This document shows positions 23,390 through 54,726 of a stretch of DNA of 64,000 bases, one piece after another (within the stretch, counting starts at the first letter, position 1; each line of letters opens with the position of its first letter). Source of the DNA: Clostridia bacterium (GTDB taxonomy: Bacteria; Bacillota_A; Clostridia; Oscillospirales; CAG-272). The stretch lies in NCBI GenBank assembly GCA_017466455.1, contig JAFTUD010000013.1, positions 62,001 to 126,000 of the forward strand, given 5' to 3'. The position numbers and the translations under genes were made by a program. Below the pieces are notes generated by a model. The model searched no databases, was not told the DNA's origin, and saw only the letters and a program-made list of their open reading frames with translations.

Positions 23390-23410
23390 CCTCCACGGCA
23401 AAAGCAAACA

Positions 23411-23438
23411 AAAACCGCCACAGTGTGGCGGATTTTCT
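23411..23438 (-). terminator. Terminator after the Fic cassette
   Basis: GC-rich inverted repeat CCGCCACA-G-TGTGGCGG (23415-23431) followed on the minus strand by a T-rich tract. An almost identical hairpin ends addA at 54.53 kb. Confidence 0.8.
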
Positions 23439-23441
23439 TTT

Positions 23442-23879
23442 TTATGCGATTGCTATGAGGATTTTCTCCATAAGCGCAAGATTGCCCTCGTAGTTATTAT
23501 CAAGGATTGCCTCTACGATTTCGTGGAGCAGATCCTTATTTATTTTTCCTGCGGCTACATGGTAGGTAATGTTCTCGGTTTGCTTGAAGAAGCGGTTTGC
23601 AAGCTCACCGTATCCGTTTATTTGAAGGAGTGCGACGGGCAAGGTGATTGCAATGCGCTTGTTTCCGTCCTCAAAGGCGTGAAATTTGCACGCGCAGAAG
23701 AACAAATGAGTGATTTTATCGGCACAGGTGGGGTAATAATCATCATTTTGGATATTTTGAAGCACGCTATCAAGCTTGCCAAGGTCTATTTTGCCATACG
23801 CTCCGCCACCGCTATGAATTACGGTCAGGCGGTGAATTTGCTCGGCAATTTCAAGAGAAAAATACTTTTTTAGCTCCAT
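23442..23879 (-). CDS. Fic/Doc-family protein
   Basis: 145-residue protein with the Fic-core motif H67-A-F69-E-D71-G-N73-K-R75, followed by ITLPVALLQINGY. The DGNKR form matches Doc-type proteins, known to transfer phosphate to EF-Tu, rather than the HPFxxGNGRxxR form of AMP-transferases. The N-terminal IHSGGGAYGK stretch fits the flap region of Doc-like proteins. There is no C-terminal self-inhibitory helix motif, so inhibition would have to come from a partner. Its start (GGAGAGG before it) overlaps the stop of the next gene upstream (TAATG). It is the last gene of a three-gene cassette. Confidence 0.85.
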   Translation of the reverse strand: MELKKYFSLEIAEQIHRLTVIHSGGGAYGKIDLGKLDSVLQNIQNDDYYPTCADKITHLFFCACKFHAFEDGNKRIAITLPVALLQINGYGELANRFFKQTENITYHVAAGKINKDLLHEIVEAILDNNYEGNLALMEKILIAIA

Positions 23880-37509: not shown

Positions 37510-37672
37510 AGTATCGCATTTGGTCGGTCAAATGCAAATGGGCTAAGCCCAAACCCATATACGAGAACCCCCTACACGCGAATTCTTCGCTTCGGGGAAC
37601 CCCTACACAAGCAGAAAGAGCAAGAGTAAAAGGATAAAATTCCTTCTATTCTTGCTCTTGTTTTTTATTCTA
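37510..37672 (+). other. Stem-loop-rich stretch ending in an orphan terminator
   Basis: No coding frame. Hairpins: GCATTTG/CAAATGC (37516-37535), TGGGC-TAA-GCCCA (37539-37551), GCGAA-TTC-TTCGC (37578-37590). The phrase GAACCCCCTACAC/GAACCCCTACAC occurs twice around the third. An imperfect long hairpin AGAGCAAGA…TCTTGCTCT (about 37616-37661) then ends in TTTTTT on the plus strand, although no plus-strand gene lies upstream. It could end a small RNA; I see no strong promoter for one. Confidence 0.45.
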
Positions 37673-37888
37673 TCGATATGTGGGCTTCGCCCACTCGATA
37701 TGTTCTCACTTTGCTCGAACTCGATATATTGTCGCTACGCGCCAATTCGATATGAGATAAATCCCTCGTTTGCGAAGCAAACATATCGAGTGCGTCAGCA
37801 CATATCGTTCGCCACAGGCGAATATCGAAAATCCCGTGAGGGATTTATCTCGATGCGTGATACTCCGTTAAGAGTATCACGCTATGCG
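37673..37888 (+). repeat. Hairpin array with TCGATATG linkers, locus 1
   Basis: Eight or nine different small hairpins are separated by a constant linker. In the left half TCGATATG-type linkers separate GTGGGC-TTC-GCCCAC (37680-37694), GTTC…GAAC (37702-37720) and ATTG-CGC-TAC-GCG-CAAT (37728-37746). In the right half the linker appears as its complement CATATCGA between GTTTGC-GAA-GCAAAC (37768-37782), GTGC-GTCA-GCAC (37790-37801), TTCGCC-ACA-GGCGAA (37808-37822) and ATCCC-GTGA-GGGAT (37831-37844). Perfect 14-bp arms (37754-37767 / 37838-37851) enclose the right half. A last hairpin, GCGTGATACTC/GAGTATCACGC (37855-37882), closes the array. Confidence 0.85.
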
Positions 37889-42638: not shown

Positions 42639-42992
42639 TTATTTTATGCCTTTGACTGTTTTTACTGATGCAATTATTCTTGCTCTAATAGAACCACAAG
42701 AATTTTTTAATGTCTGATGCTTTTCTGAGGATATTTTTCCTTTTCTGTATAGCAGTTCCAGCCAATACTCCGTTTCGTAGGATTCCTTTAAAGCGATTTC
42801 GAACTTGTTTACAAAATCCAATTCGCTTTGAGAATATTTCGCTTCAAAAATGTTCGCTCCAATGGAAGATGAGCATCTTAAAAGTTGGTTAGTATACACA
42901 CTGCACCCTTTTATTTCATCGCATATATCCGAAACTGCTACGGCAAACGAAAGCGCATCCTCTCTCAATGCATTTTTGTCTTGGTTCCCCAT
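42639..42992 (-). CDS. Four-helix bundle protein (S23/IVP family)
   Basis: 117-residue helical protein of the S23 family: LREDALSFAVAVSDICDEIKG, QLLRCSSSIGANIFEAKYSQ, EYWLELL and a C-terminal helix. Relatives occur in 23S rRNA intervening sequences and, as Avd, next to diversity-generating retroelements. Neither a reverse transcriptase nor rRNA is nearby here. I chose the ATG at 42992, preceded by AGAGGAA, because the longer frame upstream runs through the hairpin array. First gene of the tadA operon; I see no clear promoter between it and the array. Confidence 0.88.
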   Translation of the reverse strand: MGNQDKNALREDALSFAVAVSDICDEIKGCSVYTNQLLRCSSSIGANIFEAKYSQSELDFVNKFEIALKESYETEYWLELLYRKGKISSEKHQTLKNSCGSIRARIIASVKTVKGIK

Positions 42993-43020: not shown

Positions 43021-43228
43021 GTCGATATTCGGCAAGCCGATCGATATGCCTCACTTCGCTCGGCTCGATTGTTGCTATGCAACTCGATATGATATGCTCC
43101 TTTTTCTATCCTCTCGCTTTGCAGAGGCAAAGCATATCGTGTCCGCAGGACATATCGTGCCCCTTGGGGCTATCGTGCGACCTTGGGAGCATATCGACGC
43201 TGACATATAGCCTGTGGCTATATGTCAG
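43021..43228 (+). repeat. Hairpin array with TCGATAT linkers, locus 2
   Basis: The left half has TCGATAT linkers between TCGGC-AA-GCCGA (43029-43040), GCC…GGC (43048-43064) and GTTGC-TAT-GCAAC (43071-43083). The right half has the reversed linker (CATATCGT/A) between GTCC-GCA-GGAC (43141-43151), GCCCC-TT-GGGGC (43159-43170) and an imperfect GCGACC…GGGAGC. It ends in a long 13-bp stem CTGACATATAGCC/GGCTATATGTCAG (43200-43228) that contains the stop codon of the topoisomerase gene. Confidence 0.85.
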
Positions 43229-45206
43229 CTATGTCCATATACTTGTATCCATTCTCCGCAATAAACTGCTTTCTTGCCACTATATCATCGCCAAGAAGGG
43301 TTTCAAAGATTACTCTTGTTCTTTCCTCATCGGTTGGGTTTACTTGAATTAGGCGACGGGTTGCAGGGTTCATTGTCGTTTTGGACATCATATCCGCATC
43401 GTTTTCACCAAGTCCCTTTGACCTTTGGATTGTATATTTCTTTCCTGCCCTTTCAAGCCTTTCAAGGATTTGCGTCTTTTCGCCCTCGTTATAGGCGAAC
43501 TCAATCTCGCCCTTGCCCGAGGTAATTTCGTAAAGAGGTGACTCCGCAATATAAATCTTACCCTCTCTTATAAGAGTTGGGAGAAGGCGATAGAACATTG
43601 TTAAAATAAGCGTTCTGATCTGGAAGCCGTCCTCATCGGCATCGGTACATATGATGATTTTACTCCATTTGAGGTTTTCAAGCTTGAAGGCAGAAACATC
43701 GCCCTTTGACTTAACCTCAACGCCACAGCCGATAACCTTAAGAAGGTCAACGATAATATCGCTCTTGAAGATTTTATCATATGTGCTTTTCAGACAGTTA
43801 AGCGTCTTACCGCGCACGGGGATAATCGCTTGAAATTCGGGGTTTCTTGCGAGCTTACACGAGGTTAGCGCCGAGTCACCCTCAACTATATAAATCTCAC
43901 GCTTTTCCACATCCTTTGAGCGACAGGCAACGAACTTTTCAACCCTTTGGGTGATGTCGTTTGACACAGCGAGCTTCTTTTTGATGTCAACACGGGTGCT
44001 TTCCGCCTTTTCACGGGAGCGCTTGTTTATCAAAACCTGCTCGGCGAAAATCTTTGCCTGCTGATGGTTTTCCGCAAAGTAAACCTCAAGCTCCTGCTTT
44101 ATGGAGTCATAAAGTGCGCTTTCAATGAACTTATTCGTGATTGATTTCTTTGTTTGGTTTTCGTACGAGGTTTGAGTCGAGAAGCTGTTGATTACAAGCA
44201 CAAGGCAATCCTGAATGTCAACGAAGGCAATCTTTTCTTCCTTTTTGAGGTACATTCCGTTGTCGTTCAAATACTTATCAACGCTTGCAAGGAATGCCCT
44301 TCTGACCGCCGAGGCAGGTGAGCCACCGTGCTCAAGGAAGCTTGAGTTATGGTAATATTCAAGGCGACTGACTGTGTTTGAAACGCAGAAGCAAATCTCT
44401 GCCTTAAGGTCGTACTCATCCTTATCCTCTCTGTCCTTACCCCTTGCGCTCATTTCCCATTGGTGAGGGGCGGTAAGCGACTTTTCCTCCGTGATTTCGC
44501 CGATATAGTCGGCAATACCGCGCTCATAGAAAAACTCGCTCTCGCTAAGTGAGCCGTCCTCCTCCTCATAAACGAGAACAAGGCGAAGCCCCTTATTTAC
44601 CACCGCCTGCTTATGAAGGGTGGTAAGGAAATATTCCTTTGGAATTTTCGTATCGGTAAATACATCAAGGTCGGGACGCCATCTTGTAAGCGTTCCTGTC
44701 CTCTTTTGCTTTTTAGCAAGCGGAGAAACGGTAAGCTCCGAAACAGGCTCACCCTTCTTGAAGTGCATTTCGTAAAGCGTATCGCCCTTGAAGGAGTATA
44801 CATCCATAAACTCCGAGGAATACTGTGTTGCGCACGCGCCGAGTCCGTTAAGACCGAGAGAGTATTTATAGGCTCCCTTTTCGCTGTTATTTTCGTATTT
44901 TCCGCCTGCGTAAAGCTCGCAGTACACAAGCTCCCAGTTATAGCGGTTCTCCTTTTTGTTAAAATCAAGCGGAACTCCGCGTCCGTGGTCGTCAACCTCT
45001 ATTGTCCTGTCCTGGTATACGGTTACGACAATTTCCTTTCCGTAGCCCTCTCTTGACTCGTCTATGGAGTTTGATAGTATCTCAAAAAACGAATGCTGAC
45101 AGCCCTCAAGTCCCTCAGAGCCGAAAATAACCGCAGGTCTTTTCCTTACTCTGTCAGCTCCCTTAAGTGATGAAATCGTTTGGTCGTTGTACTGTTCCCT
45201 TGCCAT
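43218..45206 (-). CDS. Type II topoisomerase B subunit (ParE/GyrB-like, divergent)
   Basis: 662 residues. The GHKL ATPase has ILSNSIDES (N-box), DDHGRGVP and LNGLGA; a transducer domain follows. The TOPRIM domain has EIYIVEGDSALTS and CTDADEDGFQIRTL, and the C-terminal QRSKGLGENDADM. The TOPRIM loop reads EGDSALTSCKLARN where GyrB/ParE proteins have EGDSAGGSAKxxRD, so it belongs to a divergent branch. No A subunit (ParC/GyrA) lies next to it, on the downstream side at least, where the hairpin array begins inside its stop codon. Own promoter. Confidence 0.9.
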   Translation of the reverse strand: MAREQYNDQTISSLKGADRVRKRPAVIFGSEGLEGCQHSFFEILSNSIDESREGYGKEIVVTVYQDRTIEVDDHGRGVPLDFNKKENRYNWELVYCELYAGGKYENNSEKGAYKYSLGLNGLGACATQYSSEFMDVYSFKGDTLYEMHFKKGEPVSELTVSPLAKKQKRTGTLTRWRPDLDVFTDTKIPKEYFLTTLHKQAVVNKGLRLVLVYEEEDGSLSESEFFYERGIADYIGEITEEKSLTAPHQWEMSARGKDREDKDEYDLKAEICFCVSNTVSRLEYYHNSSFLEHGGSPASAVRRAFLASVDKYLNDNGMYLKKEEKIAFVDIQDCLVLVINSFSTQTSYENQTKKSITNKFIESALYDSIKQELEVYFAENHQQAKIFAEQVLINKRSREKAESTRVDIKKKLAVSNDITQRVEKFVACRSKDVEKREIYIVEGDSALTSCKLARNPEFQAIIPVRGKTLNCLKSTYDKIFKSDIIVDLLKVIGCGVEVKSKGDVSAFKLENLKWSKIIICTDADEDGFQIRTLILTMFYRLLPTLIREGKIYIAESPLYEITSGKGEIEFAYNEGEKTQILERLERAGKKYTIQRSKGLGENDADMMSKTTMNPATRRLIQVNPTDEERTRVIFETLLGDDIVARKQFIAENGYKYMDIADI

Positions 45207-54527: not shown

Positions 54528-54555
54528 AAAAATCCGCCACAATGTGGCGGATTTT
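54528..54555 (+). terminator. Terminator of the addBA operon
   Basis: AATCCGCCACA / TGTGGCGGATT hairpin (54531-54553 region) followed by TTCC; the A-run before it could serve the opposite strand. Nearly identical to the hairpin after the Fic cassette. Confidence 0.85.
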
Positions 54556-54596: not shown

Positions 54597-54726
54597 TCGA
54601 AGGCGATATATCCTAAAGGATTCGATATGTCTCGCTATGCTCGACTCGATATGTTGCTTGCGCAACACGATATTCACCTGCGGTGAGATTTGCCAGCGGG
54701 GGCTTCCCCGCCCCGAGGCTCTCGGG
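54597..54726 (+). repeat. Hairpin array with TCGATATG linkers, locus 3
   Basis: ATCC-TAAA-GGAT (54610-54621), TCGATATG, GTC…GAC (54629-54645), TCGATATG, GTTGC-TTGC-GCAAC (54653-54666), ACGATAT, TCACC-TGC-GGTGA (54674-54686). Two GC-rich hairpins without linker follow: GCGGGG-GCTT-CCCCGC (54696-54711) and CCCGAG-GCT-CTCGGG (54712-54726), which abuts the oadA stop codon. The array fills the space between the convergent addA and oadA genes. Confidence 0.85.

Follow-up and report, generated by a model that had tools for sequence, protein, structure and literature searches.

Arrays of variable hairpins strung on a constant linker word recur through the genomes of gut Clostridia, and they belong with an S23/Avd-like protein of the IVP family (PF05635). 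We read the arrays as belonging to a family of small mobile DNA elements, in which they would act in cis as the body of the element, a reading to which we give a probability of roughly 0.6. The window analysed here, a 64,000 nt stretch of a Clostridia bacterium contig, contains three copies: A2, which together with the adjoining IVP gene would represent a gene-bearing copy of the element, and A1 and A3, which would be array-only copies. Array-only copies are commoner than gene-bearing ones.

Structure of the arrays in the window

The core of A1, a full element core of about 180 nt (37673-37853, minus strand), comprises four copies of TCGATAT (at 37673, 37695, 37721 and 37747 in the window sequence), four inverted linkers reading ATATCGA or a one-base variant of it (37783; 37802, ATATCGT; 37822; and 37847, ATCTCGA) and the seven hairpins between them. 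Read along the minus strand, its parts follow in the order L1 (37847-37853), hp1 (37829-37846), L2 (37822-37828), hp2 (37809-37821), L3 (37802-37808), hp3 (37790-37801), L4 (37783-37789), hp4 (37768-37782), a second copy of the hp1 arm (37754-37767), R1 (37747-37753), hp5 (37728-37746), R2 (37721-37727), hp6 (37702-37720), R3 (37695-37701), hp7 (37680-37694) and R4 (37673-37679); the left linkers then read TCGATAT and the right ones ATATCGA, and the single-base variants are L1 and L3. An eighth hairpin, hp0 (37855-37882, minus strand), has 11-bp arms and abuts L1. A first-pass annotation of this DNA had described at least eight hairpins with unrelated stems, joined by a constant word and arranged in complementary halves as a dyad, and the sequence confirms that description. 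The 14-bp arms that it reported (37754-37767 / 37838-37851) are perfect, but they do not close the array: they are formed by the outer linker L1 with the 5' arm of hp1, and by the second, complementary copy of that arm after hp4, near the centre. With two complementary copies present, the hp1 arm can therefore pair either locally or at long range.

The word TCGATATG occurs nine times in the window against 2.1 expected, a number reached in none of 100 shuffles, and all nine occurrences lie inside A1, A2 and A3. A2 (43022-43197, minus strand) is a diverged element with TCGATAT or ACGATAT as left linkers and inverted right linkers, and stands directly 5' of the IVP gene; its hp0 (43199-43229, minus strand) overlaps the end and the stop codon (43218-43220) of the upstream ORF, which is topoisomerase-like by eye (43218-45206, minus strand). 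A3 (54603-54673, minus strand) is a half copy between convergent genes, of the right-half type as judged by eye from its loops and its tandem G.A hairpin. The tandem G.A mismatch hairpin keeps its place in the right half, as hp6 (37702-37720) in the window and as hp5 in many other copies, and the AGCTAAAT family treated below has, by eye, a similar purine-mismatched hairpin. A terminator-like hairpin also occurs twice in the window, at 54529-54555 and 23399-23445.

Constant linkers between variable, mostly paired inserts in a dyad set the array apart from CRISPR, REP and terminators, as the first-pass annotation had argued. Each insert pairs with itself and the orientation reverses midway through the array, which speaks against a CRISPR array; plain REP and terminator readings are likewise rejected, and a scan of the window with the Rfam covariance models at gathering score gave no match to any structured RNA family, rRNA and introns included. 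Among the matches listed in searches of open-licence papers we recognised no described class that fits such arrays, and the titles listed for TCGATATG are on other subjects.

Conservation and abundance

One genome for each of 84,980 species was scanned for three spaced occurrences of TCGATATG, which gave at least 119 stretches; by title, 97 of these 119 belong to Clostridia or to clostridial families and genera and 22 to others. Many of the Clostridia stretches come from the guts of deer, goat, sheep, yak and buffalo; those of the 22 others that were listed are near-identical or coding repeats, and we read them as chance matches. Homologues of A1 align with it at 80-84% over 192-264 nt (L117, L020, L084, L045 and L099) and at 75% over 317 nt (L058), and a chance origin of the array is therefore unlikely. 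An hp0 similar to that of A1 travels with this subfamily (L117, L020, L084, L058 and L099), and a hairpin downstream of A1 (37616-37659, minus strand) is common to L045 and L058 and partly to L020, where the contig ends.

The HMM scores A1 at E=2.8e-40, A1 itself being among the sequences from which it was built. There are 46 distinct HMM matches of full length; 39 of them divide into a common set of 15 segments, and the seven that do not are absent from the counts on the 39. The linkers are nearly invariant among the segmented copies, partly because the search patterns required them, and the stems vary between copies while the linkers stay constant. An outer stem of at least 4 bp was scored for each distinct insert, with chimeras of different inserts as the control (11-46% pass), and was present in 22/24 inserts of hp1, 21/29 of hp2, 12/24 of hp3, 27/30 of hp5, 27/30 of hp6 and 22/26 of hp7; stems thus remain paired across genomes as their sequence changes, the opposite of a refuting outcome named in the first-pass annotation, hp3 being the weakest of those tested and the least clear. 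At long range the hp1 arm has a match of at least 9 nt in 28 of 38 copies; among swapped pairs, 18% reach that length. Hairpins at a given position stay related from genome to genome inside a subfamily, so the whole array is passed on together. The earlier suggestion of a mini-element fits the evidence, but its stepwise construction by insertion of hairpins at ATAT sites finds no support here.

Matches to the linker-insert-linker unit number 4-182 per genome in the 19 genomes behind 20 chosen loci, in which at least one match is present by construction but the copy number is not, and these counts lie far above the 0-1 of the reversed-pattern control; the genome-wide recurrence in relatives that had been anticipated is thereby borne out. 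All 19 are Clostridia, Oscillospiraceae or Ruminococcaceae bacteria, with G009 at the top of the range (182). We also drew a class sample of 291 genomes from the class to which G001 belongs (G001 is the L117 genome and is included although it had been chosen as an array genome): 40 of these have a TCGATAT unit match, and hairpin inserts were seen by eye in 21 of the 40, G062 being left aside. Presence is patchy, in that G001 alone has units among the three genomes of its genus. On viral contigs, 116 candidate stretches match the pattern of three TCGATAT words, with real copies in a few (L128/L232, L134 and L139/L197), and six further candidates match the AGCTAAATT pattern.

Some copies depart from the standard arrangement. 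Many arrays of G009 consist of the left half only, followed by a second hairpin array with the linker AATTCATG (L006, L063, L066, L236, L240, L241, L242, L244, L245 and L251). Two element copies lie close together in L086 (7307-7711), L094 (3528-3916) and L034 (4686-5259), those in L086 and L094 being head to tail with an extra hairpin.

The IVP partner gene

The gene at 42639-42992 (minus strand, 117 aa), which adjoins A2 and on which the first-pass annotation is silent, encodes a member of the PF05635/S23-IVP family. Its profile scores exceed the curated cut-offs both for PF05635 (23S_rRNA_IVP; E=3.2e-19, 69.5 bits against 33.8) and for TIGR02436 (four helix bundle protein; E=7.8e-23, 80.8 against 24), and its AlphaFold model (pLDDT 92.9) has the four-helix fold. 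The nearest structures in Foldseek are the S23 proteins 2rld (E=1.5e-7) and 2gsc; the DGR protein Avd (4dwl) follows at rank 14 (TM 0.80, with a weak E of about 0.03), and chains of the DGR RNP 8ub7 also match. To judge from the dates of the structure matches, solved S23/IVP structures have been released since 2006-2007; the function of S23 proteins is given as unknown in an excerpt of PMC4990558, and a catalytic domain is absent from the IVP.

The IVP coding start lies 29 nt after R4 of A2, and the gap from array end to IVP coding start is 16-30 nt in the window, L010, L097, L098, L243 (where the ATG seen is not in frame) and L272; L237 has linkers on both sides of the IVP gene and L030 has them behind it. 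Unguided clustering of 1029 ORFs from array-bearing genome loci and the window, 371 of which lie within 600 nt of an array, gave the 117-aa IVP as the family with the most near-array members among the 25 largest clusters (8/8 within 600 nt), followed by RlmD, so named by eye (5/6), and by short ORFs that may not be genes (5/5).

The association extends to whole genomes. PF05635 is present in 19/19 array genomes and in 0/2 genus mates without arrays, and in the class sample, where 90/291 genomes have it, IVP is found in 16/18 genomes with at least two TCGATAT unit matches against 74/273 others (p=2e-7), a rule-based table free of by-eye judgement in which the matches of the two genomes without IVP are non-hairpin. 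The corresponding by-eye table gives 20/21 array genomes against 70/270 others; G062 was left out of the by-eye tables because its match had been counted through the adjoining IVP gene and would have been circular. IVPs of the TCGATAT clade (at least 68% identity) occur in 6/21 array genomes against 1/270 others of the class sample, the lone exception being G062, with its diverged array adjoining, and in 8/17 further array genomes; those array genomes without a clade IVP may have lost the gene or may be incomplete. G026 has arrays of both words, TCGATAT and AGCTAAAT, and an IVP was not found in that genome. Only 32 of the 90 IVP genomes of the class sample have at least two matches of TCGATAT or AGCTAAAT. 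Broken IVP copies with an internal stop codon were seen near arrays at G001:C1:97639-97797 and G276:C24:340-636.

Linker words and IVP clades

When the stretches upstream of IVP genes were tested automatically, a dyad word was detected in 23/70 upstream stretches, against 3/420 control windows and 0/1400 shuffles; among loci fetched by the protein alone, ignoring arrays, the figure is 17/61 IVP ORFs. The detector misses some arrays visible by eye, and found no dyad word upstream of IVPs with a VWQK-like motif. The words at IVP-fetched loci are AGCTAAAT, GTGAAGT, ATGAATT, ATGAAAT, ATGATG and ATGATAT; the array-selected locus L028 has the word GTATGTAA, and L268, which is counted among the 23 dyad-word rows and omitted from the tree comparison below, has ATTATTCA in 2+2 copies. 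By eye, short AT-rich tandem words such as TGCAGAATGCAGAATGC, which are not hairpin arrays, precede the IVP genes in L257, L278 and L310.

The word follows the protein closely. Twenty-two proteins with eight words require seven word changes on the IVP tree, the minimum possible, against a shuffled mean of 14.5; the nearest-neighbour IVP has the same word in 19/19 cases, and IVP identity is 0.62-0.99 within a word and 0.35-0.60 between words, three of the eight words being represented by one row each. Several IVP clades, each with its own word, coexist in single genomes (G001, G009 and G014). Units of the AGCTAAAT family occur in 41/291 class genomes, at up to 81 per genome, and PF05635 is present in 22/23 genomes with at least two AGCTAAAT matches against 68/268 others (p=1.5e-11). 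This concordance could arise with no recognition involved if array and gene are simply inherited together; the keeping of linkers while stems change is an argument for recognition by the IVP, and the finding that each tested IVP branch has its own spacer word points to an undescribed kind of mobile DNA. A protein-binding scaffold, one of the roles that the first-pass annotation had put forward, fits the evidence.

Strand polarity of the hairpin loops

The loops were surveyed in the ATATCGA orientation in 285 distinct inserts with a stem of at least 4 bp, taken from 633 distinct inserts that include chance ones. GN(N)A loops outnumber TN(N)C loops 104:2 (GNA 56, GNRA 19 and GNYA 29 against TNC 1, TYNC 1 and TRNC 0), and 179 of the 285 have other or longer loops of neither kind. 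Background hairpins at the same loci (stem at least 5) are even, with GNA and TNC at 120 and 121, GNRA and TYNC at 83 and 71, and GNYA and TRNC at 50 and 37. A C-G pair closes 92 of the 104 GN(N)A loops of the arrays against 88/253 in the background, and the ratio of GNRA to GNYA is 19:29 in arrays against 154:87 in the background (p=0.002). Sixteen arrays with seven other words have the same polarity, with TN(N)C exceeding GN(N)A 24:1 in the left half and GN(N)A exceeding TN(N)C 11:1 in the right (15 and 16 other loops, respectively).

The GN(N)A loops of each array half therefore sit on the outward-running strand. No single transcript shows GN(N)A in both halves, and GNYA is commoner than GNRA, which points to DNA hairpins; we infer that the working form is DNA rather than RNA. 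Hairpins of the type d(cGNAg) and d(cGNNAg) are unusually stable. A tandem G.A mismatch is kept in hp5 or hp6, and such mismatches are stable in both RNA and DNA. The polarity disfavours the role in RNA processing or decay that had been among the first-pass suggestions.

Genomic setting and target sites

The ORF upstream of the 39 copies is co-directional in 26, opposite in nine and absent in four, and that downstream is co-directional in 19, opposite in 15 and absent in five; 21 of the 39 overlap a mechanically called, putative ORF of at least 90 aa. By eye, a promoter-like TATAAT stands directly before hp0 in L036 and L073 and in the similar copies L068, L074, L101 and L252, and in L036 and L073 TTGAAA lies 17 nt upstream of it.

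The hairpin hp0 abuts L1 (score at least 8) in 20/38 copies, against 2/380 random positions. On the 5' side of 8/17 IVP-fetched loci with a dyad word there is a tRNA or tmRNA gene, at 31-89 nt from the first word or, in L270, where a second array lies between, at 345 nt; the hairpin between gene and array looks by eye like the terminator of that gene. The end of the upstream tRNA or tmRNA recurs downstream in 1/11 loci (L279, 23 nt), so that no general target duplication is seen. In L279 (2070-2232, minus strand) the last 23 nt of tRNA-Arg come again 134 nt downstream, before a hairpin and an array-like stretch. Tandem arrays lie behind tRNA-Trp in L270 (1780-2408, minus strand), the second preceded by the same hairpin and by what appears by eye to be the 3' end of a different tRNA, as if it had moved in with a piece of another locus.

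Arrays also lie at the 3' end of rlmD, both in IVP-fetched loci (L269, L280 and L283) and in L097, L010, L098 and L243. A search of 40 relatives of G005 yielded 30 rlmD-like loci, 26 of them readable at the 3' end. Four of the 26 are occupied, with the words ATGAAT (the survey query's own locus), GTGAAGT, GCGATAT and TCGATAT, the last two being variants of one word; elements of three words, one of them present as two variants, have thus used this single site. The other 22 readable loci are empty, with no inverted arm of at least 14 nt, and a few of the empty loci have short hairpins (L323, L326 and L335). The rlmD ORFs of L322, L324, L328 and L330 run dozens of residues past the usual end.

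At the occupied site the junction arm is an inverted copy of the preceding host sequence, of 19 bp in L315, 14 in L316, 18 in L317 and 14 in L098, and in L317 host sequence and arm differ from those of L315 together. There the stop codon of rlmD comes from the inverted arm; L097, L010, L269, L283 and L338 have a less exact inverted copy, and their reading frame runs on to a later stop. The inverted arm may either be made on insertion or act as a guide.

Discussion

In the mobile-element reading, a full gene-bearing copy would consist of hp0, then the linker-hairpin dyad, then the S23/Avd-like IVP gene. The IVP, a pentamer in a solved relative, would recognise the family-specific linker word together with hairpins carrying c-GN(N)A-g loops, which would form on the outward-running strand wherever the DNA becomes single-stranded or is extruded, as at a replication fork. 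Host enzymes would then copy the bound array to a position immediately after a hairpin, which could be a terminator already present or a hairpin newly formed there; the latter is suggested because, at rlmD, the final 14-19 nt of the target recur in inverted form at the junction. Such elements may be active at the present day. A bolder version is tentative and in our view somewhat doubtful: PF05635/S23 proteins at large may be the specificity factors of nuclease-less mobile elements, each clade reading its own word on hairpin DNA and bringing in replication enzymes of the host, which copy the array to sites behind hairpins, with the inverted target copy as the junction and the array-only copies parasitising the gene-bearing form.

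That the array might instead be a structured 5' leader of the IVP mRNA, serving autoregulation or stability, with array-only copies as solo leaders spread to other genes, is unlikely, though the short gap (16-30 nt) from array to adopted IVP start in six gene-bearing copies of the TCGATAT type, the promoter-like -10 box before and ribosome-binding site after some copies (by eye), and the kept G.A mismatch, stable in RNA too, would all suit a leader. On the transcript strand, however, the left-half loops are TN(N)C, with GN(N)A on the other strand only, the downstream ORF points the opposite way in 15 of the 34 copies with a known downstream ORF, and the window has no Rfam match. It is very improbable that the palindromes grew and were kept perfect by template switching at forks, with no partner, and that IVP genes lie near through a shared tendency to collect behind terminators. 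Mutation is known to correct quasi-palindromes, and fold-back copying would give just such an inverted copy of adjacent host DNA as the hp0 at rlmD; but linker words that are constant between unrelated stems and track IVP clades argue against this passive origin, and strand-polar loops and kept G.A mismatches are not what it predicts.

Two candidate enzymes were considered as common movers and rejected. Reverse transcriptase (RT, PF00078) is present in only 10/34 array genomes, which may be incomplete, and was not found in G009 despite its 182 unit matches; a Y1 transposase is present in 17/34, so neither explains all copies. REPs and REPINs consist of palindromic units scattered through a genome in inverted pairs, which share a short constant word and have RAYT as their partner protein, and the arrays resemble them in this; yet a Y1 (IS200/RAYT-type) transposase moving arrays with the IVP gene as passenger is hardly credible, since half of the array genomes have no Y1 match, the word tracks IVP clades, which a passenger would not require, and here stems vary freely between copies and linkers are constant, the opposite of REP, with a partner that is not a Y1 transposase. 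We consider it quite unlikely, if less so, that the IVP acts like Avd with an RT in trans, the array passing through an RNA copy and entering hairpin sites by target-primed synthesis. The fold match to Avd favours this, a likeness of Avd to the IVP fold also being noted in excerpted text of PMC10053308, as does DGR homing, which according to an excerpt of PMC3240598 needs a hairpin or cruciform with a GC-rich stem of any sequence and a 5'GRNA loop, a parallel to the array hairpins. The position of the elements behind tRNA genes and terminator-like hairpins likewise recalls group IIC introns, which insert just behind terminator hairpins (PMC3240598, in part). Against both comparisons stands the lack of an RT match in most of the array genomes tested; an array has 7-8 hairpins per element rather than the one of a DGR, and loops that include GNA and GNYA, and the window has no Rfam intron match.

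The array can be compared with two further systems. Like the arrays, MITEs are short and non-coding, occur in many copies, have inverted symmetry and are related to a form that bears a gene; in contrast to MITEs, no transposase with terminal repeats was identified and the symmetry lies in linker words between different hairpins. As to the terminal inverted repeats and target-site duplication of MITEs, what the arrays show is inverted linkers at both ends, hp0 abutting L1 in 20/38 copies and a tRNA-end repeat in 1/11 loci. The intervening sequences (IVS) of 23S rRNA that carry an S23p ORF are also small, have an ORF of the same family and a base-paired structure, and are, in excerpts of PMC4990558, called selfish and possibly horizontally acquired, interrupting 23S rRNA and being cut out by RNase III. 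The window copies are not IVS of this kind, A2 lying between protein genes with no rRNA match in the window; unlike IVS, the arrays stand behind protein, tRNA and tmRNA genes, consist of constant-word hairpin dyads and are mostly array-only.

The element family explains the dense repeats of hairpins seen in the genomes of these Clostridia. It ties S23/IVP clades, word by word, to DNA that they may read, which makes their function directly testable, and it offers at least eight naturally occurring pairs of protein and word that could be studied. If these elements do move without a nuclease or polymerase of their own, they would be DNA that spreads through hairpins and replication alone.
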